This document shows, one piece after another, positions 12,024 through 63,019 of a stretch of 64,000 nt of DNA. The stretch covers positions 3,726,305-3,790,304 of the forward strand of contig JARUPZ010000037.1 of assembly GCA_031213475.1 (NCBI GenBank). Reading direction: 5' to 3'. Each line of letters starts with the position of its first letter. Position 1 is the stretch's first letter. Under the pieces are notes generated by a model. It did no database searches. It was not told the origin of the DNA and saw only the letters and a program-made list of their open reading frames with translations. This stretch comes from Nereocystis luetkeana. Taxonomy: Eukaryota; Sar; Phaeophyceae; Laminariales; Laminariaceae. The position numbers and the translations under genes were made by a program.

Positions 12024-14585
12024 TACCTGGTATGGGTTTTACTTGAGCGATTCACGCCCGATCCATACAATATTTTGTCTCTGTATACATATCGACAAGA
12101 GATACCTGGTATTCGGTTATTCGTTACCAGGTACTGGTATATATTAATAAAAGTAGTAGCATCACCATTCTGTCTGGCGGAGCACATATATATATATGAT
12201 AGCCCTCTGGCAGAGGCAATCAATTAGATGCAAGCTTCGATTACAATATAGTATTCCCTCGTATATAATATTATACGGTCGTACCTGTTCATTAATAGTA
12301 CCTGGTATGTTGTTTCTCGCACAGTATTATTATTGTTGTTGTGGTGTTGTTGTCACATATCACCCCAATCATTGTAGATGTTGTTGTCTGTGGTGTTGTA
12401 TATGTCACCCCACAGCCAACCGCGGTGCGTATTATACCAGGTAGGTACGAGTACACATAATAGTTCAAGTAATTTTGGCAGTTGCTGCATGCACACAACA
12501 CGCTTATTATGCATGCATTGCACATTGATTGCAGCATGCGTATCGCATGCAACTATTAAACTGCCAGTACATCAAGCAAAAAAGCAACTTGCATTGCAAC
12601 TTGGATGCTGGGTGCAAGTTCCATTCTAGTGAGTGCACGGAGTGCAACCCGGCACTTCAAAATACCCTTCTCCTGAATCGGTCACAACAGAGAGAGGCGC
12701 GCACGCAATTCGTGTGCATCATACGTGCTCGCTTTTCTTATCGTTCTGTTCCTAAGAAAACAATTTTACAACGGTATTTTAAACGACCTGAATCGAAAGA
12801 TACTGGACTGTCAGAACGAAGACTTGGATTTCACAGACTGGAAAATCTGAAAAATATTCTGATATTCCGAAATATGAAAATATTTTGAAATTAAAATCAG
12901 ATCCAGGCCGCTGATTGGCCAATCGTGCCAGTCCCGCGAACGTACCCCCGTTCGGTTTGAGGACCTAGGCAGTAGCGTAGAAGAAGACAGGTCACCTCCG
13001 GTACTTCCCACCTCCCACCTCCCACCTCCCACCTCTAATCTCCCAGCTGCCATCCTTCCCGACTTCCCCTTCGCTAGGGGCTAGGAAAAGCCAGTGGCAT
13101 CGGACTCATCCTGCTACTATATCGTACACGCATCGACCCACAAGTTCAAGAAAGTGGAACAAGTGGCGCGCGGAATCGCATCCCACGTCTGGTACGTACG
13201 TACCAGGTATCAGGTACCTGTTGTACGTCCTACCTGACCTGGTACGCCTCTGACCAAGCGCTATAAACCACCCTCCCGCAGGTGAGAGAGTCCACACAGC
13301 GGTAGTGGCGCGGTTCCTTCGCGACCTTCGTTAACGAGAGTGCATGTATACTGTATGTTTTCTCCCTACGAGACCCGCCAGGTAGGGTCTATAGGAGGCC
13401 GGGCGCAGGTTACAGCAGGCGAAGCACCCAGGGTGTTTGTTACGTACCTGGTACAGGGTATATGCAGCACCTACCTGGTATGCAGTACTGATATATACAC
13501 CTGGTCAAACAGCAGTAGTAGTGTAGTCGTAGTAGACTCAGTCAAGGTGAATTAACATTTATTTTCGTACCACCTCCTGGAAACCAGTGTGCGTTGTGGC
13601 CGGTGCTCATCTTCGTCTCTCTTGTTGTTGTTTCTGGTACCCACTCCTTACCACCCATGCTCATCACGGCAAGGCAACAGGGTGAACAAGCATTGCCAGA
13701 GGGAACTTACATTAGCTTCGTACAAGATTAATATTGCAGTACCAGTACTCTGTAGCAGCCGCCCCCTGCGGAGTAGTAGGTTCATACTCTACCGCCACAC
13801 CACCAGTGTGGCTACTTTCGTGTACTGCTGTACTGTTGTAGACTCATACCCTGAGATCCTACCAAAGCTGTGCATTCCGCGTTTCATCTCAGCGCCTTCC
13901 AGGACAACTCCTCGCCCGTATCATAGGATGGCGAGTGTGAGTTCAGTATCATCGTTAAAAAAAACAACCAACAACTGTTAGCTGTGAGATCGAGGATTTT
14001 GTCGAAGAACTCATCTTTGCAAGTTGTGTGTTGTGATACTCCGATGTGGCGCTTATTACGTGGTTGGTTATATGTTACCGCATGCTACGTATAAATTTCT
14101 GTGCATTCATACTGCATTCAAAATGTCAAGCGTCGAGCCCGTAGTATAGAGATTCCTACGGTGCATGAGGTCATATACAACCCATAATACATACCGTAAT
14201 ACATACGCGCGATCTACTATTATTACGGGGGGCCGTAGTTAACAAGACCTATGGTATACATAAAAAACTTTATTACGGGGGGCCATAGTTAACAAGACCA
14301 AATATTGTTAGTAAACATGGTTAAACATATAGGTTTTTATGTACACCATAGGTCCTGTTAACTATGGTCCCCCGTAATACCAGGTATATATTTAATCATT
14401 TTTACCTACTAATACTATATCCTACCTGGTATTAACTATTCGTATGGCCCCCCGTAATAGAAGTACCACACACTTTTTAGCTTTTGCAAATATGAATTTC
14501 GACGAAATTTCCCCCAGCTCATCAGAAAACACAGCTGATATTCTTTTTTGGTTTCTTCATGTACGCATGTACCTCGTACCTGGTA
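12024..14585. repeat. Cluster of TACC(A/T)GGTA motifs (11 or more copies)
   Basis: Exact 9-mers lie at 12024, 12103, 12125, 12299, 12435, 13201, 13445, 13472, 14378, 14423 and 14577, all in non-coding sequence. The two forms TACCAGGTA and TACCTGGTA are reverse complements, so only one motif is involved. Two of these copies sit inside a TA-site MITE whose relatives lack the extra seven bases. The spacing is irregular, so this is a dispersed and not a tandem repeat. Confidence 0.9.
14222..14460 (+). mobile_element. TA-site MITE with a second copy nested inside
   Basis: The outer copy starts at about 14225 (TTACGGGGGGCCGTAG) and ends near 14457 (TATGGCCCCCCGTAA). A complete inner copy of about 105 bp occupies roughly 14273-14377, from TTACGGGGGGCCATAG to ATGGTCCCCCGTAA. 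The arms are long perfect or near-perfect inverted repeats and the flanks are TA, as in Tc1/mariner-type MITEs. Related copies are at 55100, 56321, 58303 and 59366. The outer copy carries two TACCWGGTA motifs. No transposase is encoded. Confidence 0.85.
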
Positions 14586-14599
14586 TACAGATGAGAAGG

Positions 14600-15180
14600 A
14601 GGCATCGGCAGAACGGCATAGAATAGCTGCAACCACGACCACAGCCGTTGACGCCAACGCGAGTGTGCAGAATGGCAGGGAAGAGGGGGGGGGCGAAAGG
14701 GGGACGAGGGGGAATGGCGGGGGGGGGGAGGGGAGGCGGTCTGCCCAACAGACTGAAGCCTGGTTATGGCCATCATCGTCATGATGCACTCCTTTCTTTG
14801 GGACCCAAGTAACTAGCATGGTGCCATCTGGGCAACTTTGCGTGTCTGTATGCTCCAGTGCCTGCCTTTGGTATTTTCTTTCCCCCCCGCCCGTGATTAT
14901 CGCTTTTTTGTCCCTTCTTTTTTTTCATTTTTCTTTCATTCCCGTTTGTACCTCTTTGTGTCTTTGTTAGTATGGTCCGTTTTGCTTTTTTTTTGCGTTT
15001 TGCTATCTGCGTCTGTTTTAGTTTTGTTTTTGTTTTTGTTTTGCTTAGCTTCATCTTCTTTTTTTAGGTTTTTGTCTGCTATTAATAGTCTCCTTTTTGC
15101 TTCCCTGGTGTCCGCAGTGGTGGAGTGCGTATGCTTGTTTTTTGTTTTTTTTTGCCTCTGTTTTTACTTGAGGTATTTCT
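14600..15180. other. G-rich then T-rich non-coding stretch
   Basis: Bases 14680-14745 form a purine tract dominated by G, and 14880-15180 is a long T-rich tract with TTTTTGTTTT runs. The resulting open frames (for example Phe/Leu-rich on the plus strand) reflect composition. I see no gene. Confidence 0.5.
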
Positions 15181-15440
15181 TCCACTCCAGAGTTATTGGA
15201 GCCTGTCCTGCGACCACGGACTGCATTGAATTGTGAGTTAATGTGAGAACAACAACAAACAACAACAACAACAACAATACACACATCGTAGCATCATTTC
15301 ATATTAAAGCAGCAGCATGTATGTATGTGTAGCTTTCCCGCCGTTTGTATGTTTCCTTCCTCGGAGGCAACCCACTCCTACGAGTAGGACCTCCAGAGTT
15401 ATTGGAGCCTGTCGTGCGACCACAGATTGCATTGTGTGGC
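15181..15440 (+). repeat. Duplicated 55-bp block, also at 62.46 kb
   Basis: The block CCAGAGTTATTGGAGCCTGT followed by CSTGCGACCACRGAYTGCAT occurs at about 15187-15236 and 15390-15440. A third copy lies at about 62470-62520. Between the first two lies a CAA-rich tract. The function is unknown; the spacing of about 200 bp suggests remnants of a terminally repeated element. Confidence 0.6.
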
Positions 15441-15762
15441 GATGAAATCATCCGAGAAGAACTTCTACTACTACACAGCAGAAGGTATAGCAGCAGAGAA
15501 ACTACAGAAGGAGTACGTGCGTACGCGTGTGCGCAGCCATGTAGCCATTGTTAGTAATATCATGTCAGGTGGTAGCTGGTAAGGAGCGAATCCGTTGCGT
15601 ACACATAAGACTGTCAGATTTTGTGTAGTACTCTAAAACCTACATACACACCCCGTACGTACGAGCACGCGGGATCGAAGCATCACATCGAGCTCGCAAA
15701 AAAATGAGTTTTGAATGAATTCGCGTTCTCACAGCTGAGGTTTTTAATTGTTTCAAGACTAT

Positions 15763-16085: not shown

Positions 16086-16249
16086 GTGATGATACCAAAA
16101 AAAAGTTGAAAAATGATTATATAAAAATAGTGATAGTGCTGCTGTTCTGTATGTATTTTACTATCTCAACATTACATCGTTTCTTTTACATCGACATGCA
16201 GCACGTCCTCCTCACGCATCTTGTGTCTTCTCTTACAGTTATGCAATGC

Positions 16250-16580
16250 CTAGATGTGAAGGTGTTACCTACTGAGCTATAGGGGTAAAAGATCGATCGA
16301 TTACCCAGCCCGGGGTAATCCTTACAATACTCTCCCCCCCTCTGAACGGCGGGATATTTGTGGCTTCGGAAATCGTAGACGTCCGTACGCTGACCTACCC
16401 GCTTCGTTTCATCACCTACCTGGGGAACCAGGGAGATGTGTTTTTAGGCACGCGCAAGCGTTTCTATAAACGATAAACGTTCGACCCGTGACGACGCCAC
16501 ATGTGGAGGTGTTACCTACTGAGCTATCGGGGTAAAAGTTCGATCGATTACCCAGCCCAGGGTAATCCTTATAATATAGA
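16250..16580 (-). mobile_element. SINE-like repeat, family B, about one and a half units
   Basis: Read on the minus strand, the unit has CCTATAGCTCAGTAGGTAAC (A-box-like) at both ends of the block, near 16265 and 16520. The shared body with CGTACGCTGACCTACCC and GCACGCGCAAGCG lies between. The two heads are about 245 bp apart, so the block is a tandem of one full and one partial unit. Confidence 0.65.
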
Positions 16581-16849: not shown

Positions 16850-17200
16850 TGATATGTACCTGGTACGGTATATAAGGCGCTTCGCCCCGCGGGCGGCCTA
16901 CGCCGCCCGCTATATACGCTCCCTCAGGAAGGAGGAGCACATCAAATTATGCGAAGCGGACAGAGGTCCATGATTGAACATAGTTTTTTTTATGATCGTA
17001 GTTGCAAACTGGCGACCTGATAATGTCAAGAGTCCCGCCGCCATGCTTCAGGAGAAAACAGGTCGGAAGGCACATGCGCTTCGCGACGCGGGCGGTTCGC
17101 TCACATGCCGTACGTATTTACATACCCAAGGTGTTGTAGGGTATTTATTTTCTTATTTCGAGCAACTGCTGTATGTACGAAAGAGAAACCACACCACGGT
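16850..17200 (-). repeat. 1.1-kb dispersed repeat, copy D (3' part only)
   Basis: On the minus strand it matches the last 330 bases of copy C: the GTACGAAAGAGAAA edge, the GGCGGTTCGCTCACATGCCG block, the CTTCAGGAGAAAACA block and the hairpin with GGGCGGCCTACGCCGCCCGC. The 5' three quarters of the repeat is missing. A TACCTGGTA motif lies at its end (16857-16865). Confidence 0.7.
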
Positions 17201-26439: not shown

Positions 26440-27632
26440 CGATGGAGATACAAAGCTTCTCTATTTCTTTGGGCTCACGGCGACGTCCACCCCACTTTTT
26501 TGTATGTCATACGAAACTTACAATCGACAGTCTGTTCTCAGATTGTTATTTTTGTTGCCGACCCGACCCAACCCGACCCCTACGATAGCCCTGACTCGCT
26601 CTACCTTGACCGTAGACCAGCTCCTAAGTGGACAGTGCGGTGATCAGGATTTTTTATTTTCAGCTGTAAATCGTCCACTCAAACAGTGTCGGACACAGTA
26701 TGTTTTGTGATCGACGCTGCGTGTCTGTCTCCTGCATGCTGCGAAGTTTTCGTCAGCGCTGAATCTTCAATGAACCCTGTGGGGGGGGGCAGTTTTGAGG
26801 GCCAATAACGCGAGACTGCCGTCATGCTTGACCGACGGCAGTCAGTTCAGTTTATAGCGGCTTGCCTGAAACCTGACGCAACACACATACCTGCGTAGAG
26901 TCTTCCATTTTCAACGGTATTGCTTCGTGTGGTAGTAAACTGTGCATGACCCCTGACGCTTTCTACGATAGACGTAGCACATTTCCGCTTTTTTTGTTTC
27001 TGACTGACGAGCCTCCTTAACCCAAAATCGTCGGAACGTCAATCTTGTTTCGAAAAATGACGTTTTTGTATACTTGGGCCATGGGATTTTTCATCGGGAA
27101 GCTATTTGATTATTGCTGAGGTCGTTTGTCGGATGAGATATGGAGCTCCTCAAGTGAGGAGCCTCGGAAAATTTAAGGTGAACCTATACCGTAGAACGCC
27201 TCCCCTCTGCCGCGCGACAGATGAACGCCACTTATCTGCCCGGGTTCAACAAGGATCCCACCCGACGCACTTGTTGCGTTTCTATTTTTCCGCCGACGCA
27301 AGGGCACGAATTTCCTCCCGGGCTTTCGTCGCACAGTTGCGCCCGCGGTAACATTTTCAAAACATGAAAGCGTTCCCTTTGCCTTCTGCGTCGTCGAATC
27401 GAATAGCGCAAGTTTTTTTTTTTTGTTTCGCGGTACAGGTAGGTGTCGAATACCTGGTACATATTTGCGGATGGCTGCTCCTGTGTGACACATGCCAGCA
27501 CATCGCTCTGTTGGATAGTTTGTATCTCCAACCATAATTGCCTTCCCCTTATGCTTCCGCTCTCCACCCTGGCGATCCCCCGTTGTTCCCTAAGGAGCAA
27601 GATATTCCAGGAGGTCGGAAGGTCCCGCCGTC
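26440..27632. other. Upstream region of the 27.6-kb gene; no confident exon
   Basis: A short GACCCGACCCAACCCGACCC block lies at 26560. Minus-strand frames at 27173-27600 are open but unrecognised. An acceptor-like ATTCCAG at 27606-27612 shortly before the ATG at 27633 could end a 5' untranslated intron of the next gene. A TACCTGGTA motif lies at 27451-27459. Confidence 0.4.
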
Positions 27633-41600: not shown

Positions 41601-44600
41601 CGCGGGGCGAGGAGGGGCGGGGTTGGGGTGGGGCGGGCGTAGGTGACGATTTTCGGGGGAAGGGCTTAGAACAACAACGACGGGTCCTCGAGAAACGTTG
41701 CGCGGGCAGCCATTGGGTCGGTCGGTCGGTCGGCCGGCCGGTCGGACGGGACGTTGGATGCAAGCGCTTCGGCTGTGTGGGTAGGGTGGTGAGGTTTTCC
41801 AGGTCAGACGTGCTGCATACTTGTCCATGGCGTCGTGCGTCTTACAGTACAGTGGGACGTTTGTAGTCAGAACGTACGATGGGCGCAATGTATCCCCGCA
41901 TGTTGACACATCACAGTGCGTTCTGACTACCATGTTCCCCCCCCGTAAAAGCGGCGAATTTAGCTTCTGCTGACAGATATTTTCTTTGAGGTCGGTGATA
42001 GCGAGTGGGTCACGCAACAACGGCGACGAATGACAGCTTGGTCTTTTTCGCCAGAGTTCGAGGGGAATGGAGGCGTTTCAAATTGTAACGCACACACCAG
42101 CGAGTGAAGGCTGCTAGCTCTACAACTGAGCGGCGTTTTTTTTTACTGTGGAGCTATGTTACCTGGTAGTGTATATTGCTATTTGTACTTTCAAGCCAGT
42201 ACGCGCTCCTTAAGCACTCGTAGAACGAACAAGCGCTTGCAGGGCGAACATCTGAGCACGTGATACCACGACACGTGAAAAAAAAACTCAAGGTACACAG
42301 ATGGTGGCGACGGCACGCATCCAAGCCAGCGTTAACAACATCCATCTACCGCCAACATCCAACGCCTACGCCAACGACAACATCGAACCCCAATACCAAC
42401 ACGCTACATTTTTATTTATTTTTTTCTATCCTCCGGCGGAGGGGTAAAAATGAACCTTAAGCTCACTACTATTCCACGTTCAGATTTTCGTGTCGTGTGT
42501 CAATTCAACCTAACCCCATAGCTCCCGTTGCAACAGCAGGGCAGGCTACTGCTACCACTGGCGCTTGCGCACGATGACCCGACCTGACCCCCGAAAGGGG
42601 CGGGTGTGGATAGCCACCCGGGGGAGTCATCTCCGCCGGGTAGAGGGGCAAGTGCGGTGGAGATAGCCACCCGGGGAGTCATCTCCCGGTAGTGTGGGAC
42701 TCGCACGTTACAGTATCACGAAAGACCGACACCAACGCCAGCACCGTCACCAACACGACAGCCGACAGCATCTCTTTATCAACACCGACACCAGCACCAA
42801 GAACACCAACGTCAACGCCGATCCTCAAATGGCAAAACCAACACCAACAACGAACTTCAGACAGCACGCAGGCATGAAGCCAGACGACGCGCGCACGCTA
42901 GCTCCGCCAAATCCGAGACACTCACGGCTGCAGGCGAGCCACCTCAGGAGACATGTACCGGAGCGACCCCACCTCGCCGCTCATCCGGTAAAAATCGTTT
43001 ACCCCGGCCTCCGACCGCTTGATCAGCTTCGCCAAACCTAGGTCTGTTTCGTTGCAATACCGACGCGACGTGGAGCCATGGCGGTGAGCACGGGCAAGGG
43101 AGCGGGGGGTTGGCGGTGGTGGTGGCGGCAGCAGTGGTGGTGGCGATGGAGTTGGTGGCGGTGGTTGTGTTAGTTTTTGGTGTTGGTAGTAGTGTTGGTG
43201 TAGCTGGTGTTAGTTTTGGGGTTGGTAAAATGCAGTAGTATTAGCGTTGTTGGTGCTGGTGTAGGTGTTGCCGGTGTTGTCGGCGGTGGTTGCGGCGGTG
43301 GCGGTGTTGGGTGTTGTTTTTGGTGTTGGCAACAGTGTTAGCGATGTTGGTGCTGATGTAGGTGTTGTTGGCGGTGGTTGTGGTGGTGATTACGGTTGGT
43401 GGTGGCTGGTGGCGGTGGCGGATCACTGCCCAAGATTCGGCGCGCTTCCACGCCAAGTGCGCGTGTAGCTCAGACAGAGAGACCGAAAAAAAGCGGACTG
43501 GCTAAAATCGGGAGGAGTATGAATGGGGATACACCAAAATGATCAACAGCCCCATGGCTTTGAACCAAACACCCACCCCGAGGGCAGCAATCACGTTCAT
43601 AGTTTATCTCTTCGCAAAAAGTCACGCATCAGCCCTCGGCTGCCGACGGCGACGCGAACTGATCACAGCGAAAAAACAACTGTCGAACTTTACACTCCTT
43701 TGGGCCGCCCATATACGTTGACAACCGGAGAGGACTCGTGAAACAGAGCAAGAGCACAACAACGAAAAAGAGAAACCGGAGGCTGGGTGGAGCCCCTCGT
43801 TGCCCACCCACCCCTCCCCCGCCTGCCCCCCCACCGCGCCTTCCCTCCATTCCTGAGTATCCACCCCCCCCCCCCCCCGCGCGCGCTCAATGAGTACACC
43901 CCCCCCCGCGCGCGCTCGCTCCCCCTCCCGCTTGCCTCTCTATGAAACCTATTTACTACAAGAAACCCCGCGCAACAGCTCACCGAACTGTGTTGTAGCG
44001 CCGATGAGGGTTCGTGTTTGTGTCCAAACCCAAGCGGAACCGGGGTGAAGGCATGACGGGGGAGGGAAGCGGGGGGGGCAAGGGCGAGTCGGGTTGCGCA
44101 CATGGGACACGCTTAGGTTGGGCAGGCAAATAGTAACTTCGAGACTAGGGCTCAGAAAAGACAAAGTCACATCGGGAGGAACGCTCTGCCGCGGTGCTGA
44201 ATGAAGCACGCACGCGGGAAGGAAGCGGTGAGAGCAAGATGCACGACGAGCACTGAAAACACCAGCAAGACCCACGCATGGACACCTTGCATGCATATAT
44301 ATCAGCCACGCCAGCTACTACAAGGGGATCAAAATCCACATCGACCCATCTAGAATACACACCGACATTCACTAACTTCAACACCAACACTACGCAAGTC
44401 CCACAACAACGTAAGCACGACATAAAAACTACCCCTGTTTCGTAGTAATGCCCTGTACAGAAACATCAATCCAGTATGTACTACATAAATTCCCAAAAGT
44501 GTTTTGCCTCGCCGCAACGGCGGTGCAGCCCTTAAGGCCTAGAAGGGTTATAAACCCTTTTAAGGAAAACCGCAGTCCCGTTCTGGGGACGAGCCACTCT

Positions 44601-47600
44601 AATCCCAAGTACTTTGTCCCCAAAACAGGACTGCAGTACTAAATGGGTTAAGACCACCCCGTGACGAGCCCCAAGACAAATAAAAAAACACCGCTAACAC
44701 CAACGCCAACGCCAAGCCCAACACTAGCAAAACCACCAGCACAACAACCACACTGGCACCCGACGCAGGCGGGCACCGATGTCGATACCACTCCCCCCCC
44801 CCTCCCTCCCCCCAAAATAACCCAACACGGGCAACAAGGAGGGCAGCACCATCAACGATACCAGTATTGATCAACAACAACGTCCCCATCGACGATTGGA
44901 ACAGCACCATCGACACACTCGACGCTAACACCAACATCAGCCCCAGCGATAGCAGCCGCGCGTCCCCGTACCAGCTTCATGACGTTCCCGCTGAACCCCA
45001 AGTTGTCGGGCTTCAAGTCCCGATGCATGACGCACCTGGTGGCGAATGACGGGAAAGAAAAACGGCACCGTTGAGAAGGTCGTCTGAAATGGTCGGGGGG
45101 AAGATTGTGCGAGGGGTGCAGCAGACATTGATCACACATACATGTGGACGAAGCAAGCGAAGCACTTGCGAGGACGCAATCTTTTACCTAATTATTGATT
45201 CGGAGCGCAACCGCCGCGGATGGAAGCCGGACACAGCGCTAGGGGCAAGCCGAAAAAAAACACACACATACACACAAAAACCAAACACACCAGCCTGTGG
45301 ACCCTGCTCTTACATATCAGACGTGTGCACGCCAGCAGCCGCGAGAGCCCGCGGCTTGCTCATGTTGTTCGCTGCAGTTCGATGGACGAGCCTATCACAG
45401 TAAACAATATACTCCCATCGTGGTGCAACATGCATATACACTTACTTCAACAGAAACCGTCCAAACCCAGCCAATAAACCATTGCGAGCAAATACGTACC
45501 CTGTTACGTACACTCCAGTGATGCAAAACGATATTCATTCGCAGTCACCTAACCAGGAGTCCGAAATCGAAAACCGAAACGCACCACCGCATATTCCATT
45601 TGATTTATCAATCAATGTCGATTTTATTTCGTAGCGTGCTTGTGTTACGGGATTGCCTTGAAAGGCCTGCAGAAGTCGATAATTACCTGGGTACAGGTAC
45701 TGTGTACTGGGATCGTTTTTCGTAGTAGTTGGGGAGGCTTGTTGAGGATGGGAAACCGGGGAGTTTTCCGGTGGGGCAACCAGCCTTCCGTCTTTCAGTT
45801 CTCCATCGAGCGGAAAGGAAATTAACTGCTCTTCTTCAATCTATATCATACCACCGCCATAGAGGACCCCAGCAGGACGCAGTCCACCCTCCATGCGACT
45901 CGCCCAACACCTCACAGCGCTTCGCGCTCGGTGCAAGCAATGTCTGCCTGGTCGGTGAAAACCCGACGTGCTCCGTCCCGGCATTGTAGGGATGCGAGCG
46001 TCTACGGGCATACGGCTACCGTGTAAGGGATGCGAGGGTCTATGTGGTCATGCAACCTACGCCCATGCATGAAATGAGTACAAACACACCCCACACACAC
46101 TGCTGTGACCCCGAGATCACCACAGCCATCGCCTGACTCCAGCAACGGCTTTCAGCCCGTGTCCTAGGGTACACACGCCACTGCTCCACTACTCTTATCC
46201 ACGACTCTTACCCACCATCCCACCTCCCCCACTACTATCGACACCCCACCACGACGCTACCCAATCCCATCACCGCTCCAAACCCCTCCAATACCTCGAT
46301 CACTCCCACTACCCAAATACCCTAGAACCCCGACACCGCTCTATATGCACCAACTCACGTTCCAGGGATGGCCTCGCAGTGCAGGTACTTCATCACGGAC
46401 GCTAGCTGGAGGGCGTGTCGAACCGCAGGCCAGAAGCCCAGCCCGCCCCTCGCCGCGTCCAGCCGCTGCCGCAACGTACCTCGGTCGAGGTACTCCAGCA
46501 CGATGAAACTGTTGACACAATTGTTGTCGAGGAGGAAAAGGAGGAGGAAAAGGAGGAGGAAAAGGAGGAGGAGGAGGAGGAGGAGGAGGAGGAGGAGGAG
46601 GAGGAGGAGGAGGAGGAGGAGGAGGAGGAGGAGGAGGAGGAGGAGGAGGAGACAGGGGGGGATGGGGGCGCATCGGTGGGGTCGAGCGATCGCCGATTCA
46701 TGCCGCAGCGTTAGAATGATGTGCTCTTCGACATATTTAGCATACATACATACCACCTTCTCCAGAAGTGTAGGGACCGTTTGGGTGCTGATAGGAGGAC
46801 CCAAGCCGTTCTCATGTTTCAGCGTGGCTGTTTTGCAGTGTTCTCGTATATGTATATCATCCTCACAACCGTGGCCCGCCGATCCCGAGGCACAAGGCGC
46901 TGACAACAGAAGCGCGCTACAAATTACCTGGTATGCATCCTACACGCTGCGTCCGCTTCTTCCCCCTTCGTCGTCGGGGATAGGTGTGTCAGTGCCACCG
47001 TCTACTTGCAGAGGGTACTGCTACGCATGCACCCCGTTCGATCTCTGGGAGTGCTTCTATTTTCCTGTACAACGTCTCGTTGTACGTTTCTCCAGACCAT
47101 ATATACACGCGCCTGCCCCCGATGACTTCATTCCGTTCGGGAATCTCGTCATAGCCCAACGATAACCCCAACGGTAACCCCAACTGTAACCCTAACGGTA
47201 ACCCCAACGGCAACCATACCGGCATCCCTAACGGTATCCCTAACGGTATCCCTAACGGTATCCCTAACGGTAACCCAACGGTAACGCTAACGGTAACCCC
47301 AACGGTAACCTCAACGGCAACTCAAAGGGTATAAGAAAAACAAAACGAAACAAGTTATGTTATAATTTACCAAGCGCCTAACGAATCCATAGGGAGGCAA
47401 CATGGCGGAAACAGGACGCTCGGTTCTTCGTGGCTTCTATCTTCTCCATCCTGGGGCACATTACCGTTGCACGCGCCTCACGCTCTCCTCTCCGGGATCA
47501 ACCCCTTCCCCCCCAGCCTGATCGGTGAAAACCTGGCGTGCTCCGTCACGGCAACGTAGGAATGCGAGGGTCTATGGTCATACTATTTAATACTACGGCC

Positions 47601-49309: not shown

Positions 49310-49930
49310 ACCGGTCTACGCCGGCCAAAATTGGCTTCCATGAGGACGTATGCCGAGCAAAAGAGATCGGGCGAGCAACTATATTGACGCAGGGCAAAAA
49401 ATATTTGCATACCATGTCCGGAGGTATCGCTATTAATAGGGCGGTACTGATGTTTACCTCGTACTTTGTGAGCGTGCCCGTTGTCTCTGGCGTTCTTCGA
49501 GATAAACAAACAAAATTGTGTACTACTCAGACGCAGTACGACGCTGAAACAAATGGCAATAATCTGAAAAAAAAAATAGCGGGCTTAGTTGAATACCTGG
49601 TATATTACACCTACGTAGGTCCACAGCTACTGCCTCTATCGCAGGTTGTCCCGGTGCAACGCTGTTGAGCTGGACGTCAGGTCAAAGCTTGAGAGAAAAA
49701 ATAAAGCCGTGGGAACACGAAAGAACACACACACGTTCTCTCGCAGCTTCCAAACCTAAAGTCAGTAGGGTGCTGGGTTTATACACGGCTGAATAGTACC
49801 TGTATAAGGCGATAGGTGCTACCTGGTATTCGGCTATTTGGCGAGTTAGGCTATAAGGCGACATCAAGCCGCTTGTCCCTTAAGTAGGTCGCCCTAGCAC
49901 CACTGCTGTAAAATACACGTATTACTACCT
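49310..49930. other. No gene seen
   Basis: The plus frame at 49252-49668 is open for 138 codons but starts inside a MITE. I recognise no motif in it. TACCTGGTA motifs lie at 49594-49602 and 49820-49828. Confidence 0.4.
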
Positions 49931-50255: not shown

Positions 50256-50887
50256 CTATACACAGGGCATATATTGATTTTCGCAGCAGATATATAGATG
50301 TAGATAAGATCATGGTCAGATACTCAGGAGAATAAATACTTCCCTTCGGAGTAGCAAGTAACGATCAGACGATGGAAGACAATCGAGTACACGCAATGTA
50401 CGAGTATTGCTTTATACTTGTACCAGTCAGTCAGTGCACAGGAGCAATCGACGACCACCGCCACATAGCAGAGTGCCGGCGATTACAGCGATAGCCACTG
50501 CGGCGTGATTGGAGGAAGGTACAAATTGGCGTCCGGTGTCCGGGTCACAATGCAAGGGCTCGTACGGCACGGGAGGGCGCAACATCATTCTACAGGTATC
50601 ATAGGTGCTGCTGGGCGCTGGTGACATCAAAGCTATGGTAGGTACAGTCAGCAGCAGTGGGTACCAGGTATAAACGTACGTATTCCATGTCGAGAGACTC
50701 GGGTAAATGAAACATGAAGGAGACCGACAGGCCACGTCGTAACAATCAGACATTACGCAAGTATAGACACGATAATGTTTATTTTCTGAAATCGGGGAGA
50801 CGAAATAAGGTGTCGTACGGTATTACTTTTCAAAGTGCAGTAGGTACGAAAGGCTCTAAACCACGGCACGACGAAAGTTACGGGTTG

Positions 50888-50989: not shown

Positions 50990-52730
50990 ATGGCTTACCG
51001 GTAGGTTCTGAGAGGGTAACCCAAGAGACATGCCACTATAAATATAAAATAACTTACTTAGATGCTACCAGGTGCTTCGGAGTTCGACGTCCCAGAGGTA
51101 TGATCAGTCAGTCAATCAGTGCACACAAAAAATTCCAACAATCCCCCAGCACCAGAAGTACCCTTTGATGGGGGTGGGGTCGTCTGCTGGAAATATCGTC
51201 AACATCGTTAAAACACCCATCTTCGGACGCTGCCAAATACTTTTTTTTTTTTTATATATACCAGGTACTTCTTATTTCGTCTCTAGTTTACCAAAAACCT
51301 ATAAATCACGTTCCAGAACTGCTGGTTGTTGTGTTTCCCACCCAACTATTCTGATTACGTTTTCGGACAGCTCTTGGTACGTGGGATTTGCGATTTCGTC
51401 CGGTTTTATTTTTTTCAACGAAAAGGAGATATGGGCGAAAAGGTGGGGGTCTTGGAGGCCGTGTGACTCGAGAATCCCCGTAAAAACCACCTCTACGAAA
51501 TGGAAAATGGAAACATCAAACACTTTATCTCGCCGATGAATGATTGATATAAATTTTGTCTGACCGATAAAGCGAAAAAAAAACTTGAAGATATTCCATC
51601 ATTTTGTCCAAACCGACTGGTTTTGGGTGATTTGGAGGAAGATACCTGGTACATTTTTTTTCAATGTCTTGACCTTTTTTTTCCGGAACTCGTTATACTC
51701 TATTATAAGACGTGGATAGAAACACTGCCCTGTATTGACCGCATGTACCAGGTACTCGTAGCGAGGAGACTGCTGTACCGCTGTCCGTACTTGCCGTCGC
51801 CCAGCGGCACCAGGAATGATCCTATTAATAATAATACTATACTTCAAGTACGAAGTCACAGCAAGTGCAGTCTCAGGAACGGTACACAAGAACAAAAAAA
51901 ATCGGGAAATCACATTCGGAGCTGTTGACGCTGGGGTTTCTACTATGTGGGTACGCGTGTTGGTTCCGGGGACATGGTATCCACAGAAACCGCTAGTATA
52001 TATTTTTCAGTCCCAGAGAGGGGGGGGGGTATGGGGGAATACTAAAATCAAGTGAAGCAAACTGAAAAAAAAACATCTGGAATTTCACGAATACCTGGTA
52101 TTATTAAAAAAAAAAAATGTGTTTTTTCAAGAGTACGAGCTGTTCTTCATGCTGCCTTGTTGATTCTCGTTGGTGTGATTTTTGTTCTGCGTTTGCTTGC
52201 TCTCGACCGTCGCCAACACTGGTGCTGTTTTCGTATGGCGTAGTTATTGCCCTGTATTCGTGTCACACCGAGAATATTGGGGTAATGTTGCTGCTGCTGT
52301 AGTTGGCTTCGGTACTGGGGTGTTGGCGAGCTGTCCCGCTCTGTGCTGTACCAGGTACGTGCTTTCATGGGTATGTGCTTTTATTGGGCGTCTATTTTGT
52401 CCGGCTTTGGAAACCCACCAGGCGTGTGTTCGAGTCACCGTTTTTTCAAAAAAAAAAGGAGTTTTTTTCCGGCTTTAACCAGTTGAACGGTCACCGGAAA
52501 AAACGGGAAAAAAACGCGGTAACCGGATAACCGGAAGAGCCGCCAAGCTCAGTACAGTATTAATAGTATTTGTGACTACTGTACTTTATTAATACTGTGG
52601 TCACGCTCGTAGCACCCACAAGCACAGCAGTAAAAAAAACGGAGCACAAGGTAGTGAATAACAACCTACCAGGTAATGTTCAAAGGAATGCCCTGGGCTG
52701 GAAAATCGATATTACCCTTTTTCTTTTTTT
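50990..52730. other. No supported gene; AT-rich with many TACCWGGTA motifs
   Basis: Plus-strand frames at 51072-51539 (155 codons) and 51623-51928 are open but show no recognised motif and contain homopolymer T or A runs. Seven exact motifs lie within 1.4 kb. I found no splice-supported exon. Confidence 0.4.
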
Positions 52731-53236: not shown

Positions 53237-53510
53237 CCATCCCATTCATTATCTTCGCACATCTTCTTCTCTCTCTCCTTCCAACTCGTAACTCAGATCC
53301 GGGGTCACATAGCAGGCTCTCCTCCCCCCTTCCCGCTACGGTACGTACCTTCATTTTTATCGCGAGAAGATTTCAGCCTTTTCTTCCCTCGTCGACTCGC
53401 ATCGAATTGTGCCTACCCACGCTGCAAGGCGCTCTCAACAATCTGGACTGGGTAATCGATCGGTCTTTTACCCCTATAGCTCAGTACCAGGTAGGTAACA
53501 GCTTCACATA
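53206..53510 (-). mobile_element. SINE family A copy joined to a family B head carrying a motif insertion
   Basis: A 30-base T run (53208-53236, tail on the minus strand) leads into the standard family A body up to 53445. Next comes GACTGGGTAATCGATCGGTC and CCCCTATAGCTCAGTA, then CCAGGTA, then GGTAACAGC, which is the family B head. The extra CCAGGTA splits the pol III A box TAGCTCAGTAGG that is intact at 60400-60425 on the other strand. Confidence 0.8.
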
Positions 53511-53785: not shown

Positions 53786-54094
53786 TACCATACTCGCACA
53801 GAGGAACTCAAAATTGTGATATGATATCCAGATAAAAGGTACCAGGTACCAGGTACCTGGTACCAGAGAGAGGCACGAACGTTCGGCTATTCAAACTATT
53901 AATAAACAACAGAACCATTGAAACTTTTTTTTACCCAGATCTCCTAAAAAAAGGAGGAAAAGAAGAAAACAAAAAGAAGAGCGTTGAAAAAGCAAGAACA
54001 CAGCAGAGAAGAGCCGAATCTGCGGGTTGTTTTGCACGAACAGTCACACGATTGTTCATTTGTTGCTCAAGTACCCCCCGGGACATAGACGATA

Positions 54095-54745: not shown

Positions 54746-55099
54746 ATCACGCGATTAATCCGAATCTCATACAAAGCCGCGGGGAACTCCGCTGGGCAAA
54801 TCCCCGAGGATTGCCCTGCCGTCCACCACACCCCACACCCCCCGCGAAGAAAAATGGGGTTCTAACAACCTCATCACTCGGTGTGTTACTCTCCGCGTTG
54901 TGATTTTATTCAGCATAATAGTCCGAGGTGATGAAATGGGTGTTTTATTTCAGGTTTAGAAAAAGAGTACCTGGTATATATAATCGGGGTGGTAGATAGA
55001 TGGTTGATTAAATGGGTGTGGTAACGGGTTCGGTTGCAAATGAGTTTGGCTGCCACACTCTAAGCACAAGCGATGTGATACCTGGTAGCAGCTATTAAT

Positions 55100-55207
55100 A
55101 TTACGGGGGACCATAGTTAATAGGACCAAATATTGTTGGTAAAAATGGCTAAATATGTAAGTTTTTATGTACACCATACGTCCTATTAACTATGGTCCCC
55201 GGTAATA
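55100..55207 (+). mobile_element. TA-site MITE, uninterrupted copy
   Basis: It has TTACGGGGGACCATAGTTAA on the left and TTAACTATGGTCCCCGGTAA on the right, flanked by TA. No TACCWGGTA is inside it, although one lies 13 bases upstream. It serves as an empty reference for the motif insertion (CCTATTAACTATGG at 55185). Confidence 0.85.
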
Positions 55208-55780: not shown

Positions 55781-56320
55781 GTAGTTGTTTTGGGATTCAA
55801 TGCATCACCCGAGCGGCATACTCGGGGTGTACGTTATACAACATGCGGAGGGTGGTCTTAAATACCAGGTACACCGAAATATACGGTACATACACGGCGT
55901 TCGCGACGCGTGGGTGAACACTACAAGTAGAAAGGAAAGCACCCGAGTGAAATCAGGGGACTGCTACCTCTCACCGGGGTACGAAGGTCTACTTGGTTGA
56001 CTTGTCGTGCTTTTGGCACGAAACCAGAATTCAGTCATGATTGATCCATCACGTTCTGTACCAAGGTACACCTCACGGTGGACATGTTCATAATTTCAAT
56101 AAAATTCGAGTGCCAACATCCATCACGTACGCAGTCTACGACGTTAAATACCAGCCCACTCTGTACAGCACGACTATTACTACTTAATACTGATCGTAGA
56201 ATATATACCAGGTACTATGTTGGCGACTGGCTGGGTGATGCTTGTTTGGGGGGGGCGGGAGACGGGGGGGGGTTGTGATGAGTCACAGCGTGGTGAGCGG
56301 TGAGTGACGGCTGCAGTAAC

Positions 56321-56429
56321 TATTACGGGGGACCATAGTGAATAGAACCAAACACTGTTAGTAAAATTATCGAAATACATTAATTTTTGAGAGTACCGTA
56401 GGTCCTATTTAATATGGTCCGCCGTAATA
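56321..56429 (+). mobile_element. TA-site MITE, diverged copy
   Basis: TTACGGGGGACCATAGTGAA on the left and TTTAATATGGTCCGCCGTAA on the right, flanked by TA. The arms have several mismatches, so this copy is older. Confidence 0.8.
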
Positions 56430-57695: not shown

Positions 57696-57699
57696 AGAA

Positions 57700-58300
57700 T
57701 TTCTTAGTTTTGTCTTTTTTCCTCTGCGGGTTTCAGTGGCGCTTCTCTGGAGCTCCCACTTGAACAAGGCCTGATTCTATCGCTTGCCGGCGGCGGGAGC
57801 TTTCGGCAAGCTCTTTTCCCCCTCCTTCTAGCAAGGAGTTTTCCCACTTTTTTGTTTTTTTGGTTTTCTTTGTTTAAAAAAAAACACCCCGCGCGCTCGG
57901 GATGGTCGCCAAAAGTCAAAAGTGTGTTCTTTTAGGTTCTTTTAGAGACCCGTGGCTTGACCATCATCTCAAAATCGGACGAACTTCACAAATACGAGAG
58001 ACGCCTCGACACTACGGCGTACAACACTTCCCTGCCCCACCCGCGGCTTTATTTGACCCATTTTTTACTACTGGGCACCGGACAAAGAAACGCGGCTTTT
58101 GGAAACTCGGCAGGCGTTGGCAAGCAAGCCGGTTTTCAAAACGAAAACACGTTTTGAATTATACCTGGTACCATGTAATTTCTGTTTATTTTAGGCTATC
58201 CACATCTCCACTATAACGAGCGTACAGCAAAGGACAACGTGAGCGTAAAAATGACGGCGTGGACGCAAACAAGGCGACGAAGAGACCTAGGTACGCACTT
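57700..58300. other. No gene seen
   Basis: GAGCTCCCACTTGAACAAGG and CGCTTGCCGG at 57750-57790 resemble the first 60 bases of copy C, so part of another repeat copy may follow in tandem. The rest shows short frames only. A TACCTGGTA motif lies at 58162. Confidence 0.4.
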
Positions 58301-58302
58301 GG

Positions 58303-58411
58303 TATTACGGGGGACCATAGTTAACAGGGCCTATGGTACACATAAAAACCTATATGTTTAACCATTTTTACCAACAATATTTGGTCCTGTTAACTATGGC
58401 CCCCCGTAACA
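58303..58411 (+). mobile_element. TA-site MITE, near-perfect copy
   Basis: TTACGGGGGACCATAGTTAA on the left and TTAACTATGGCCCCCCGTAA on the right, flanked by TA on the left. It shows the consensus interior AAAACCTATATGTTTAACC without motif insertion. Confidence 0.85.
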
Positions 58412-59035
58412 GTACACAACAAGGTATAAATCGAGGGAAAACTGAAGAATATTTTTTCGGTTTCCCAAAAAATCACCAGTGGTTTGCATTGTTTAGGAGG
58501 CTGCCAAACGAAAAACGGTTTAATCGGTTTTTGAGAAAACCGCCTCCTATCCGGTCTCGATGTTTCGAAAATGCTACGTGCGTATCCGATGCCCATCTCT
58601 CGTCCCCGAACAACATTGGCGCAGTTCTGTGCATCTCTAGTATTTCGCCCCCAAAAACATTGGTGCAGTTCTTGTTTTTGTCAGTGGGCAGAATCCGTGC
58701 GGGGTCCAAAAAACTCCGTATCCCCTTCCTCATAGGGGTGAAAAAGCCTTACAGATTACCGTAGTACTCCCATACCAGTGAGTCCCGAAATACTTCGTAT
58801 AAGGTATGTTTTCATTCAATATTTATATACGAACGATGCTTATATTGGGGACAGAGTCGTAATGAAGAACTATAAATACCTCGTATTTCAAAAACTACGA
58901 CGAGGTCTGGTAAAGGCTACCAGGTATTATTTAATATAGTATGTACCTGGTATCAGTCTGTCCGTAAATAGAAGCAATGTCTCCGTGTAATTGAAACGCC
59001 CACTCGACATTTATATAGATACACCATATGACTCT

Positions 59036-59245: not shown

Positions 59246-59365
59246 ATGAACACCCCGGCTCCCGCTCGGCAGCCTGAGTGAGTGAGGGCCCCTGAGTGCG
59301 TAAATTGTCGTCGGCAGGACCCACTCTGGCACCTTGTTCTTACACCGACTTGAAATGAAATATTA

Positions 59366-59582
59366 CTATTACGGAGGACCATACTAGGTATTAACCCATT
59401 TAGAACCGCAGTCCCGTTTTGGGGACGAACTACTTGAAATTTGATTGATTTATCCCCTAAACGGGGCTGCGGTTCTAAAAGGGTTAAATAGGACCTATGG
59501 CACCGACGAAAACCTACCAGGGTATATATTTACCTAACAATATTAGGTCCTACCAGGTATTTATTATGGCCCCTCGTAATAA
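59366..59582 (+). mobile_element. TA-site MITE carrying a nested piggyBac-like MITE and motif insertions
   Basis: Outer ends are TTACGGAGGACCATAC and TTATGGCCCCTCGTAA. A complete piggyBac-like MITE occupies 59395-59483 and is flanked by TTAA on both sides (59391 and 59484). It sits exactly in the TTAA of the consensus word CATAGTTAATAGGACC. The right half has CTACCAGGGTATATATTT and CCTACCAGGTATTTATTATGG, both absent from the empty copies. Confidence 0.85.
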
Positions 59583-59689
59583 TATCAATACAGAGCATTG
59601 CTTTGAGCAAATAGTCTACACAGCAGTAGTATGTACGCACGTATGAAACACTTTTGTCAGTTACTAACATTTAATGCTAATACGAGTAG

Positions 59690-60803
59690 TGTGGAAGCCA
59701 GGGTCGGTAACTATCGTAGATCTCGTAACACGCACGCGCGAAGGACACGTCACCGGTCAAGCAATATCAAAATCTCGGGCCACGAGCGGTCTCACGTCAT
59801 TGACGGTGTAGACCCGTCCTCGGGACGATAGTCATCGGGAGATACGTAATCCGCCGCAGACTCTGGGCGGCCAAAAAGGCCCCCCACCGACTCAGTCTAG
59901 CACTACTCTGTAGCATCTCCTTGCCAAATATCAAGGAAGAATTCTGCTCGGCTTACGTAGCATCTCCGCGACGACGGCGACATCTCCGCGACGACCTCGG
60001 TACGAACGACCAGCGCAGGTACTACATTTACATTGGTGACCACCGTGAGATTCGAACCCTGCCCGTGATTCTCAAAACAGCAACCACGGGAGCGCACCAA
60101 GAGTACGTGTGGCCACACGGAATTAATGCGTTGAGATAAAGTTTGGATTTACCAAACAACTTCAGCATACGCTGTCAGCGTGTGAGCTTGAACATGTGAG
60201 CATCTTCGCCGGACCGGTTTTTTTAAGACCCGTGTTTACTCAATACGTCGGCTATAAGGAGTGGATGCACGCATGTGAAGACTGCGGTGTTTCGATCGGA
60301 TAAATCAGCACCCTGCTTCCTAACTAGTCATCCTCCCGATGACCGCCACAAGACCATCCCTAGCTAAGATGGCCTTGCGGCGAATAAAGACGCCAAACGT
60401 GAAGGTGTTACCTACTGAGCTATAGGGAGGGGTAAAAGATCGATCGATTACCCAGCCCAGGGTAATCCTTGTAACAGGGGGCGATGTGGAAGCCAGGGTC
60501 GGAGATATCGTAGATCTCGTAACACGCACGCGCGAAGGACACGTCGCCGGTCAAGCAATATCAAATCTCGGGTCACGAGCGGCCTCACGTCATTGACGGT
60601 GTAGACCCGTCCTCGGGAAGATAACTATCGGGAGATACGTAATCCGCCGCAGACTCTGGGCGGCCAAAAAGGCCCCCCACCGAGTCAGTCTAGCACTACT
60701 GTAGCATCTCCTTGCTAAATATCAACGAAGAATTCTGCTCGGCTTACGTAGCATCTCCGCGACGACCTCGGTACGAACGACGAGCGCAGGTACTACATTT
60801 ACA
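59690..60803 (+). mobile_element. TRIM: short LTR retrotransposon, complete
   Basis: Two direct repeats, 59690-60032 (343 bp) and 60485-60803 (319 bp), both start TGTGGAAGCC and end TTTACA. The 4-bp target duplication GTAG lies at 59686-59689 and 60804-60807. One base after the 5' LTR a primer-binding site starts at 60034: TGGTGACCACCGTGAGATTC, followed by GAACCC. Read in reverse, this is a tRNA 3' end with a TTCGAAT loop, a 5-nt T-arm strand, a 7-nt acceptor strand, a discriminator base and CCA. A purine tract AGGGGGCGA precedes the 3' LTR. The interior is only 452 bp and includes a family B SINE piece (60395-60475). No gag or pol is present, so it depends on another element. Confidence 0.85.
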
Positions 60804-60869
60804 GTAGTTGTATTTATATAATAGATGGTGGTAAATTCTCGATATTGGCCATTAGTGTTGTGAGATCAG

Positions 60870-60967
60870 GGCTCGTAGGACCGCAGTCCCGTTTGGAGGT
60901 CAATTTACTTGGAAATTGACTGGTTTATCCCACAAACGGGACTGCAGTTTGCCCTCAAAGGGTTATT
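60870..60967 (+). mobile_element. piggyBac-like MITE, diverged copy
   Basis: The arms CGTAGGACCGCAGTCCCGTT and AACGGGACTGCAGTTTGCCC surround GGTCAATTTACTTGG. The left TTAA end is lost; the right end is AAAGGGTTATTA. It belongs to the same subfamily as 53677-53785. Confidence 0.7.
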
Positions 60968-61421
60968 AGGTGGGTCCTGCCGGCGGCAAACTATACATCC
61001 ATGGGGTATATGTGGAGGGATCCGGTCTGGGTAGGATCAGGGCGTCAAGCAGGAGCAGGGGTGTTTGGAAGCAGAGCTCTCACCTATGGTACCTCCTGGG
61101 CACCAGGTGAAGCTAACCAGAGGGGAAACAAATCTCTGGGGGGTGGCTAACTCCTCCAATACAACATGGAGGATGCGGACTACAGAGTAATAATACACGA
61201 ATGACAGCAGCAGTTTTCTTTTACGTATTATATTATTTTCGTATTTCGTAAGAAGGTGCGGAGTTTTTTTGGTCTGCCGTGTGCGGTTGATTGACCTGGA
61301 GGCAGCGCGCAGCGTGGATCCTAAAACCAGAGAAAAAACTCTCCGCTTTGTGAGCTGTCCGCTCTCTGCCGCTCGTCGGGCTCCGACTTGAGAACATGGC
61401 TGGTAGAATATATTTATAATG

Positions 61422-61775
61422 CCGGTCGCCCCGGCGGTTCAAGTGGTTAACCTCGAATTCTACTTGTTTGGGTCCTGGGTTCGAGCCCCAGGTGGGTCGG
61501 ACTTTGACTTTATTTGCAAAAATAAAAAATGATTCAATTGTTGAGAGCGCCTTGCAGCGTGGGTAGGCACAATTCGATGCGAGTCGACGAGGGAAGAAAA
61601 GGCTGAAATCTTCTCGCGATAAAAATGAAGGCACGTACCGTAGCGGGAAGGGGGGAGAAGAGCCTGCTATGTGACCCCGGATCTGAGTTACGAGTTGGAA
61701 GGAGAGAGAGAAGAAGATCTGCGCAGATAATGAATGGGATGAGAAAAATAAATATATATATATATATATATATAT
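61422..61775 (+). mobile_element. SINE family A, full-length copy with tRNA-like head
   Basis: The head has CGGTTCAAGTGGTTAACC (A-box region) and CCTGGGTTCGAGCCCCAGG, a perfect T arm with a consensus B box. The body runs from GATTCAATTGTTGAGAGCGC to AATGAATGGGATGAG and the tail is (TA)n at 61750-61775. This copy shows that the truncated copies elsewhere belong to a tRNA-derived SINE. Confidence 0.85.
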
Positions 61776-61779
61776 AGCC

Positions 61780-62455
61780 CGCTCTCCCTTGTGTTTGGTT
61801 GAGACTACTGGCAACCATGCTATCGGACCTTGCGTTGACTGACGGCGTACCACGTACGAAGTACTGGTACCACGGTACCACGTGTTTGTACAGCAGAATA
61901 GCGAAACGCATGCATGAAGCAGCTTTTCTACCGTCACAATTCACAGCCAGTCTCCAGCTGGAAGTAGCACAGACAACAATCCTGTAGTAGCAGCAGCGGT
62001 GGGGACGGCGATCGCCGAATAAATGTTTACTACGGAATCCACTTGGTATTCTATATCAGTATCGTATTTACACTTGTTCAAGTACTATTATACAACCACT
62101 ACTGCTGCTGTACCGTACCTGGTATACTATTAATAATATTAAAAATACTGTTGCCATATATTGATAGTGTCGAGTGTTAGGCTCATTCTTATCGGAGAGT
62201 GTTTTTTTCCATAATTTCCAAAGTTTGGAAATAATTGGAGATATGTATCGATGTACGGAGGCGTTCTGTCACTATTCGTGAAATTCTCGAGAAGCAAAAA
62301 TATCAAGTTCGTTAACATTTCAATATTTGGAAAAAAAAACCCAGGAAAATATGAAAGATTGAAAAATTGCGCGAAAAAAATGTCGAAAACTTGGAAAAAA
62401 AGCTCTCCGATAAGAATGACCCTTACTCGTTTATAATTGTTTATTATTTTTACCG
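61780..62455. other. No gene seen
   Basis: The sequence is AT-rich from 62030 on. Around 62165-62440 there is an imperfect inverted repeat: TCATTCTTATCGGAGAG at about 62182 and CTCTCCGATAAGAATGA at about 62401. Their arms are about 50 bp, so a decayed MITE is possible. Confidence 0.45.
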
Positions 62456-62457
62456 AG

Positions 62458-62525
62458 TTATTCTTCCACTCCAGAATTATTGGAGCCTGTCCTGCGACCA
62501 CGGACTGCACTGTATTGTGGCGAGA
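62458..62525 (+). repeat. Third copy of the 15.2-kb duplicated block
   Basis: CTTCCACTCCAGAATTATTGGAGCC and CTGCGACCACGGACTGCACTG match 15180-15236 with few changes. Confidence 0.6.
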
Positions 62526-63019
62526 GAGCCACAACAACATACCACTATAACAATTGTTGTACGGGTGCTCGTTACCAAGCGAGGTGTCTACGCCCGAGCC
62601 GGGTACCTACCTCCTCTGTGGCTGTACGTACGTTATCCATTGAACAGGAAATTCGAAACTGCCAAATAGGAACCTGCAGGTGATGCCTTTTCCCTCTCTT
62701 TTTTTACTTTGTCACCAAAGGTATGATATGATATGATGTCAGGGGTGCGTATTTCCCGGTGACGGCAATCACCCGAAATAACTATAAATATTGATATTAA
62801 AATCATACTTCGAAGAGTGTAAATAAAGTTCGGCTTTTTCTTTTTGGAGGAAACCTGGCTATCGCCTATCCCCTCCCACCGAAACCGAACCCCGAAGCCG
62901 TACTATCCAACTCATATTCTCATGCTAACATTGTTGACAGTTGTGTACCAGGTATGTGTAGGATTTACCAGGGCTCACTTCGGTATGCCTTTTTTAGGTT
63001 GGTATCGATCGTTTACGGC

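Follow-up and report, generated by a model that had tools for sequence, protein, structure and literature searches.

A nine-base word gained at TA in the Nereocystis luetkeana genome and its possible origin as a transposon excision footprint

The closest described counterparts of a short residue between two TA dinucleotides are the excision footprints of Tc1/mariner (IS630) transposons such as Sleeping Beauty, the TA-bounded elements removed by the ciliate Euplotes, and heptamer tandem repeats of bacteria. Here, we compare with these systems the nine-base word TACC(A/T)GGTA (TACCWGGTA), a CCWGG residue, palindromic about W, with TA on both sides, which is abundant in a 64,000-nucleotide stretch of the brown alga Nereocystis luetkeana (assembly GCA_031213475.1, contig JARUPZ010000037.1, positions 3,726,305 to 3,790,304; hereafter the window). 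We consider it fairly probable that the word is the excision footprint of a TA-inserting cut-and-paste element, left in the Tc1/mariner (IS630) manner.

Footprints of the Sleeping Beauty/Tc1 type reportedly read TAC(A/T)GTA and are said to form by self-pairing of overhangs with one central mismatch. TACCWGGTA resembles them in its TA target, in TA on both sides and in an odd palindrome with an A/T centre; it differs in having five bases rather than three, 182,395 matches and no source element found. According to PMC7827188, Sleeping Beauty footprints equal its 3-nucleotide overhangs.

Euplotes, according to PMC3464196, excises TA-bounded elements in bulk via junctions with partly heteroduplex DNA; the excised circles hold two TAs with 10 bp of partly heteroduplex DNA between them, and short internal eliminated sequences (IESs) leave a single chromosomal TA without extra bases. 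By that account, the Tec elements and short IESs are likewise TA-bounded, Tc1/mariner-related and excised in large numbers. Unlike the present case, with its two TAs and five bases between, their extra bases go to the circle, a single TA stays in the chromosome, and the process is programmed and belongs to a ciliate.

The identical heptad unit, CCWGGTA, occurs in bacterial metagenome-assembled genomes (MAGs), where a 3-unit array was found at 40 loci (L001-L040), several per MAG in places; some of these runs also include related heptads, e.g. TACTTGG.

Abundance of TACCWGGTA and its gain at TA

The window contains 43 exact copies (20 with centre A, 23 with centre T; starts 1252 to 62946), 41 of them inside 12024-62954, and our recount agrees with the preliminary description of this DNA, which had also called the word strongly over-represented. 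A third-order Markov model predicts ~0.8 copies per window for the A and T forms summed, and 1,306 order-2 Markov resamples gave a mean of 0.71 and a maximum of 6. Centres other than A or T are rare, with C and G seen once each, and the remaining 24 one-mismatch neighbours total 30 occurrences versus 14.6 expected. Across the assembly (465 Mb, 1,987 contigs, the window being part of contig C37), TACCWGGTA has 182,395 matches, ~105 times the 1,744 of a control pattern that was reversed without being complemented. These expectations, resamples and the genome-wide control rule out a chance origin; the over-representation is real and extends past the window.

Further comparisons drew on a 0.28-Mb sample comprising the window, small loci of ~3 kb and, from the contig of the window, 16 informative stretches (L049-L062, L067, L068). 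Simple repeats aside, TACCWGGTA is the most frequent 9-mer of this sample. One stretch that is 98% N (L063) and the satellites L064-L066 were excluded from word counts, the flank comparison of TATTAATA and D9 (see below), the outside-flank test, logo scans, the count of one-sided ends, the paralog test, the decay analysis and the terminal inverted repeat (TIR) scan; they were included in the 225-flank logo, the empty-relative alignments, the stricter gap test and the D9 family alignment. Two loci that overlap L044, namely L045 and L046, were excluded from the one-mismatch logo, one-sided ends, paralog test and TIR scan, and included in the empty-relative and D9 alignments, the TATTAATA/D9 flanks and the outer-logo scan.

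Alignments with relatives lacking the word reveal how it arose. Copy 53485 reads CTCAGTACCAGGTAGGTAAC, and CTCAGTAGGTAAC takes its place in three window relatives of 89 to 95% identity; a fourth (11918-11970) is 75% identical, and the empty relatives have no gaps near the junction. The earlier observation of one repeat with and without a 7-bp difference was thus right.

Empty relatives in the window:
16254..16311, - strand, empty relative of 53485, 95% identical, TA retained
16501..16560, - strand, empty relative of 53485, 90% identical
60399..60460, - strand, empty relative of 53485, 89% identical
42411..42510, - strand, empty relative of 4422, 75% identical, TA itself not retained

Because L045 and L046 overlap L044, the full empty-relative listing shows three physical sites nine times. 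Among 139 sample copies tested against paralogs, 80 alignments from 16 sites favoured the empty form and 12 from 9 sites the filled form, all other motif sites having no usable paralog. At 1,020 decoy TA-N5-TA sites, the balance was 184 empty (38 sites) to 1,789 filled (184 sites), with 4 of the motif and 17 of the decoy sites counted in both columns. The difference is significant by Fisher's test both by sites (p = 1.7e-6) and by alignments, which are not independent (p = 3e-63); a few paralogs may be double-counted because L047 and L048 overlap by ~1.2 kb. An ancestral motif subsequently lost is therefore rejected for the sample. There, CCWGGTA was gained at TA, with TA on both sides, and the proposal of a 7-bp block inserted with TA duplicated finds good support in the empty-site alignments. 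The related words TACWGTA and TACSGTA are enriched about twofold in the window; as gains they are unsupported by paralogs (empty to filled, 5:30 and 16:316).

Copies are clustered within the window (variance/mean 3.0 versus 1.05), a value reached by none of 5,000 random-TA placements, and 10-kb stretches along the contig hold 0 to 11 copies each. Local hopping, sequence age or selection could each be the source of this clustering. No copies occur in L049 or in the satellite stretches L064-L066, which lie on the same contig (2.86-3.25 Mb) and consist of TA-rich, satellite-like arrays.

Motif copies in the window (strand entered as. in every row):
1252..1260, TACCAGGTA copy, exact match
4422..4430, TACCTGGTA copy, exact match; 7-bp gap against paralog 42411-42510
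12024..12032, TACCTGGTA copy, adjoins TACCATG unit, a possible decayed neighbour
12103..12111, TACCTGGTA copy, exact match
12125..12133, TACCAGGTA copy, exact match
12299..12307, TACCTGGTA copy, exact match
12435..12443, TACCAGGTA copy, exact match
13201..13209, TACCAGGTA copy, adjoins TATCAGGTA, a possible decayed tandem
13445..13453, TACCTGGTA copy, exact match
13472..13480, TACCTGGTA copy, exact match
14378..14386, TACCAGGTA copy, at right TA of D9 element
14423..14431, TACCTGGTA copy, within D9-related repeat; same aligned TA as copy 59551
14577..14585, TACCTGGTA copy, adjoins TACCTCG
16857..16865, TACCTGGTA copy, exact match
27451..27459, TACCTGGTA copy, exact match
34453..34468, tandem pair with TA in common, centres T, A
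34738..34746, TACCAGGTA copy, exact match
42160..42168, TACCTGGTA copy, exact match
46925..46933, TACCTGGTA copy, exact match
49594..49602, TACCTGGTA copy, exact match
49820..49828, TACCTGGTA copy, exact match
50662..50670, TACCAGGTA copy, exact match
51259..51267, TACCAGGTA copy, exact match
51643..51651, TACCTGGTA copy, exact match
51746..51754, TACCAGGTA copy, exact match
52092..52100, TACCTGGTA copy, exact match
52349..52357, TACCAGGTA copy, exact match
52667..52675, TACCAGGTA copy, exact match
53485..53493, TACCAGGTA copy, four window relatives without the block
53840..53862, tandem triplet, centres A, A, T
54968..54976, TACCTGGTA copy, exact match
55079..55087, TACCTGGTA copy, exact match
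55863..55871, TACCAGGTA copy, exact match
56206..56214, TACCAGGTA copy, exact match
58162..58170, TACCTGGTA copy, exact match
58918..58926, TACCAGGTA copy, exact match
58944..58952, TACCTGGTA copy, exact match
59551..59559, TACCAGGTA copy, within D9 element
62116..62124, TACCTGGTA copy, exact match
62946..62954, TACCAGGTA copy, exact match

An exact search of an open literature library for the 9-mer and its tandem words returned no match, and the works it lists on footprints, on brown algae, on heptamer repeats or on Euplotes have no title or abstract opening that describes TACCWGGTA. Rfam and tRNA scans of the window found nothing.

Target preference, decay and tandem copies

The insertion sites share a sequence preference. 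Counted outward on both sides of 225 flanks, from which tandem-adjoining flanks had been removed, position -7 is T in 46% and A in 37% (background 23 and 27%; W in 83%), position -6 is A in 46% (22%), and position -1 is A in 45% and T in only 4% (28 and 16%). A TA lies exactly seven bases out (-7/-6) in 25.3% of flanks versus 5.9%. This logo was first noticed in the window and was replicated on 145 flanks beyond it (W at -7, 83% versus 52%, p = 2e-15; TA at -7/-6, p = 3e-11; TA at -2/-1, p = 6e-9), whereas the window's shortage of C at -9 did not recur on those outside flanks. In our reading, the window's enrichment of TA at seven bases derives partly from neighbours one mismatch off CCWGG. 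The motif's target preference is WANNNNRTAYNNNNTW, which is palindromic. DDE integrases show palindromic preference around a fixed TA, so the pattern points to DDE-type integration, and it is a poor fit to a binding site or to slippage.

Copies decay through ordinary mutation. Within 224 kb, we counted 123 exact copies and 106 one-mismatch copies versus 48 expected, with transitions (55 versus 16 expected) and transversions (51 versus 32) both in excess and a mean divergence of ~4.0% per site. The logo score falls from 0.50 for exact copies to 0.10 for one-mismatch TA-N5-TA words and -0.39 for words with at least three mismatches. This decay, together with the intermediate logo of the one-mismatch words, suggests that insertion has been long-lasting and that individual copies enjoy no visible protection. 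When 120 sample copies were oriented by their centre, no clear orientation asymmetry emerged.

Most copies stand alone (38 of 43 in the window), yet pairs sharing a TA number 10 in the sample versus 1.2 expected under random TA use, and genome-wide the tandem form TACCWGGTACCWGGTA has 15,917 matches versus 2 for its control. This excess is in line with the preference for a TA seven bases away. The sample tandems have centres AA in 4 cases, TT in 4, AT in 1 and TA in 1; among the matches listed, 59 + strand pairs, all within the first 2.9 Mb of contig C1, comprise 23 AA, 17 TT, 14 AT and 5 TA.

A second probable footprint and the search for a source element

The footprint interpretation is preferred on the strength of the Sleeping Beauty analogy and of another, probable footprint that can be traced to a source within this genome. 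That source is D9, a miniature inverted-repeat transposable element (MITE) of ~105 bp, TTACGGGGGACC...GGTCCCCCGTAA, with TA on either side, present in 26 copies (5 in the window, 21 in L043-L068).

D9 copies in the window:
14271..14379, + strand, D9 MITE (TTACGGGGG...CCCCCGTAA, TA-flanked), no internal motif
55099..55207, + strand, D9 MITE, no internal motif
56321..56429, + strand, D9 MITE, no internal motif
58303..58411, - strand, D9 MITE, no internal motif
59487..59584, - strand, D9 MITE, contains motif at 59551

Three D9 members carry the motif block at differing TAs (window 59551, L060 near 1517, L059 near 5650, the last with four further bases), and other members have it at a flanking TA. 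The word TATTAATA occurs 55 times in ~0.25 Mb, about twice as often as intact D9 copies (50 ends). Its flanks, counted outward (C 61%, A 62%, T 45%), match those that D9 has outside its TA duplication (C 46%, A 65%, T 52% in 48 distinct flanks of the 50 ends), its four added bases (TT+AA) equal the first two and last two of D9, and its paralogs favour the empty over the filled form by 14 to 4 (5 and 4 sites of 61). These three lines of evidence make excision of D9, leaving two bases per side, the most likely origin of TATTAATA. A TT overhang would be unable to self-pair, so that both ends would be filled and four bases remain. Scars would then be abundant in this genome, which sets the pattern expected for CCWGG. 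The two residues are alike in being TA-flanked, short and palindromic, with a palindromic logo and paralogs favouring the empty form; in contrast to CCWGG, D9 has a source family present, adds four bases and targets TACTAGTA, also palindromic, rather than WANNNNRTAYNNNNTW.

In our reading of the alignments, D9-related copies also contain single insertions that end in or repeat TA (TTCGTA, CTGCTGTA, TGTA; window 14423-14465, L060:9857-9975, L054:4986-5100). Another TA-flanked word, TACGAGTA/TACTCGTA, appears in 15 distinct contexts in the window versus 2.7 expected and in 48 versus 9.1 in the sample; with paralogs at 7 empty to 3 filled (2 and 3 sites), it is possibly a further footprint. Viral contigs matched neither the D9 end nor the 3-unit heptad array.

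For CCWGG, the element's ends would read TA-CCAGG... or TA-CCTGG..., and the transposase, on excising it, would leave each flank with an overhang of five terminal bases. Two such overhangs, CCAGG and CCAGG, could pair as C:G, C:G, a mismatch (A:A or T:T), G:C and G:C; joining, followed by repair or replication, would yield CCAGG or CCTGG between two TAs. The central mismatch would account for the A/T centre and for the lack of a clear orientation bias. Scars may far outnumber intact copies because excision is highly efficient ("touch and go") or because the element has largely vanished. In agreement with a Tc1/mariner (IS630) origin, insertion is at TA with TA duplicated, and the genome encodes DDE/D transposases: the pogo-type DDE_1 domain (PF03184) has 28 matches. 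PF13358 had no match in the genome, nor did PF01359, for which the control genomes were silent too. The nearest named relatives of the pogo transposase are from Ectocarpus sp. CCAP 1310/34 (55% identity), other relatives reaching 94%. Like the postulated source, the pogo-type elements of this genome have a Pogo/Tc1/mariner-type transposase and, in L079:235-2422, TA-flanked inverted ends (CAGTACCGGCC) around a DDE_1 match with one stop. Near another pogo locus, TACCAGG and CCAGGTA lie 23 bp apart (L071:1194-1223), a spacing below the minimum of the TIR scan.

Several results weigh against the footprint interpretation. The implied five-base overhang is longer than the three of Sleeping Beauty. 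A scan of ~0.28 Mb for TIR pairs with TA-CCWGG ends (more than 30 bp and less than 6 kb apart) returned none, the whole genome not having been searched; the same scan recovered 23 D9 pairs, and 60 random words gave a mean of 0.48 and a maximum of 6. Unlike the element sought, the 12 pogo loci read include none with a CCWGG-ended TIR pair. Nine other 7-mers occur 23 to 54 times in the sample (mean 34); one-sided TACCAGG (44) and TACCTGG (53) stay inside this span but exceed the mean, which leaves room for up to ~30 single ends, and the target logo is absent from their outer flanks. Within the window alone, the 17 one-sided TACCTGG amount to about twice the base-composition expectation. A scan of TA-adjacent words in the sample found no repeat family with a matching outer logo, and the window holds no variants with both overhangs filled (TACCAGGCCTGGTA, TACCAGCTGGTA). 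Tandem centres agree in 8 of 10 sample pairs and in 40 of the 59 listed pairs, above independence (p = 0.009). A stricter gap test was also less clear than the paralog test, with 11 clean 7-bp gaps (3 sites), 9 gapless alignments and 67 of the 87 having gaps outside both simple classes, versus 26, 2,999 and 586 for decoys.

The preliminary description had proposed the footprint of an undescribed TA-site element or a tiny self-propagating insertion. Its gain of a block at TA holds, and the footprint is favoured, but no transposon with TA-CCAGG or TA-CCTGG ends came to light in ~0.28 Mb, either as a TIR pair or as a clear excess of single ends. Because no source was found in that sample, direct evidence does not separate the two proposals: either excision nearly keeps pace with insertion, or the element has become scarce or has disappeared, or a longer element never existed.

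Alternative explanations and significance

The last of these options corresponds to the alternative that survives best, an unlikely one, in which an integrase-like activity adds CCWGG at TA, no longer element was ever present, and the insertion may favour its own copies. It would accommodate 182,395 matches of an exact block with no intact source in the sample, as well as the tandem excess, since the TA seven bases out is what each copy offers next. Against it, annealing of overhangs predicts just such an odd palindrome with A or T in the middle, D9 indicates that ordinary footprints are abundant here, and we know of no enzyme that inserts so short a duplex. As a tentative proposal, a TA-specific integrase or a touch-and-go element may have written CC(A/T)GG up to ~182,000 times with no larger resident element, favouring the TA seven bases from a TA that each copy supplies.

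Slippage, by which a CCWGGTA unit would expand in tandem as in bacterial heptamer arrays, is a very improbable origin. The 40 bacterial loci share the unit, and the concordance of 40 of the 59 listed algal pairs suggests that part of the tandems may be slippage. However, the predominance of single copies in the window and relatives lacking the entire block at a unique TA contradict it. Bacterial arrays are nearly uniform in centre, as slippage would leave them (87 of 93 neighbouring pairs concordant), whereas 19 of the 59 listed algal pairs are discordant versus 6 of 93 (Fisher p = 7e-5), which argues for independent insertion.

It would be similarly surprising if the vegetative genome displayed the junctions of programmed DNA elimination while the germ line kept TA-bounded elements, in the manner of ciliate IESs; to our knowledge, no such elimination has been reported in brown algae. 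The ~182,000 TA-bounded copies without intact elements in the sample recall the mass excision of Euplotes, but the target logo persists on decayed copies, and removal of the short Euplotes IESs, as described in PMC3464196, leaves one TA in the chromosome with nothing added.

A host protein-binding site multiplied by selection can scarcely be credited: the 9-mer is palindromic and its clustering non-random, yet it is gained as 7 bp at TA, decays in a neutral-looking manner with transitions in excess, nests in tandem and carries a flank logo. An assembly or sequencing artefact, for which we found nothing in favour, is practically dismissed by the diverse flanks, target logo, mutational decay, fitting repeat alignments and absence from the L064-L066 arrays.

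Elsewhere in the window, a 651-residue open reading frame (27633-29588, + strand) has no Pfam match and two database relatives (99% and 72% identity). Kinase motifs (HRDLK, VALK) lie in separate frames on the - strand (~45025, 48104 and 46358-46939) with weak kinase matches, and these frames are probably exons of one kinase gene. Pfam scans of the window frames gave kinase as best match (5e-7) and weak matches to SCAMP (0.0011), BCMA-Tall_bind, PRIMA1 and BRX; two further Pfam scans of these frames had no match.

Ordinarily, the scars that transposons leave are a minor by-product. In this genome, a single exact five-base residue between TAs is ~105 times as frequent as its reversed control, and its source is unseen in the part examined. 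If confirmed as a footprint, TACCWGGTA would constitute a record of up to ~182,000 insertion events, datable and with a target logo; it would mean that excision can far outrun residence and would offer a case for tracing a transposase from its scar. If it is true that no larger element was involved, the word would represent a new class of genome insertion.

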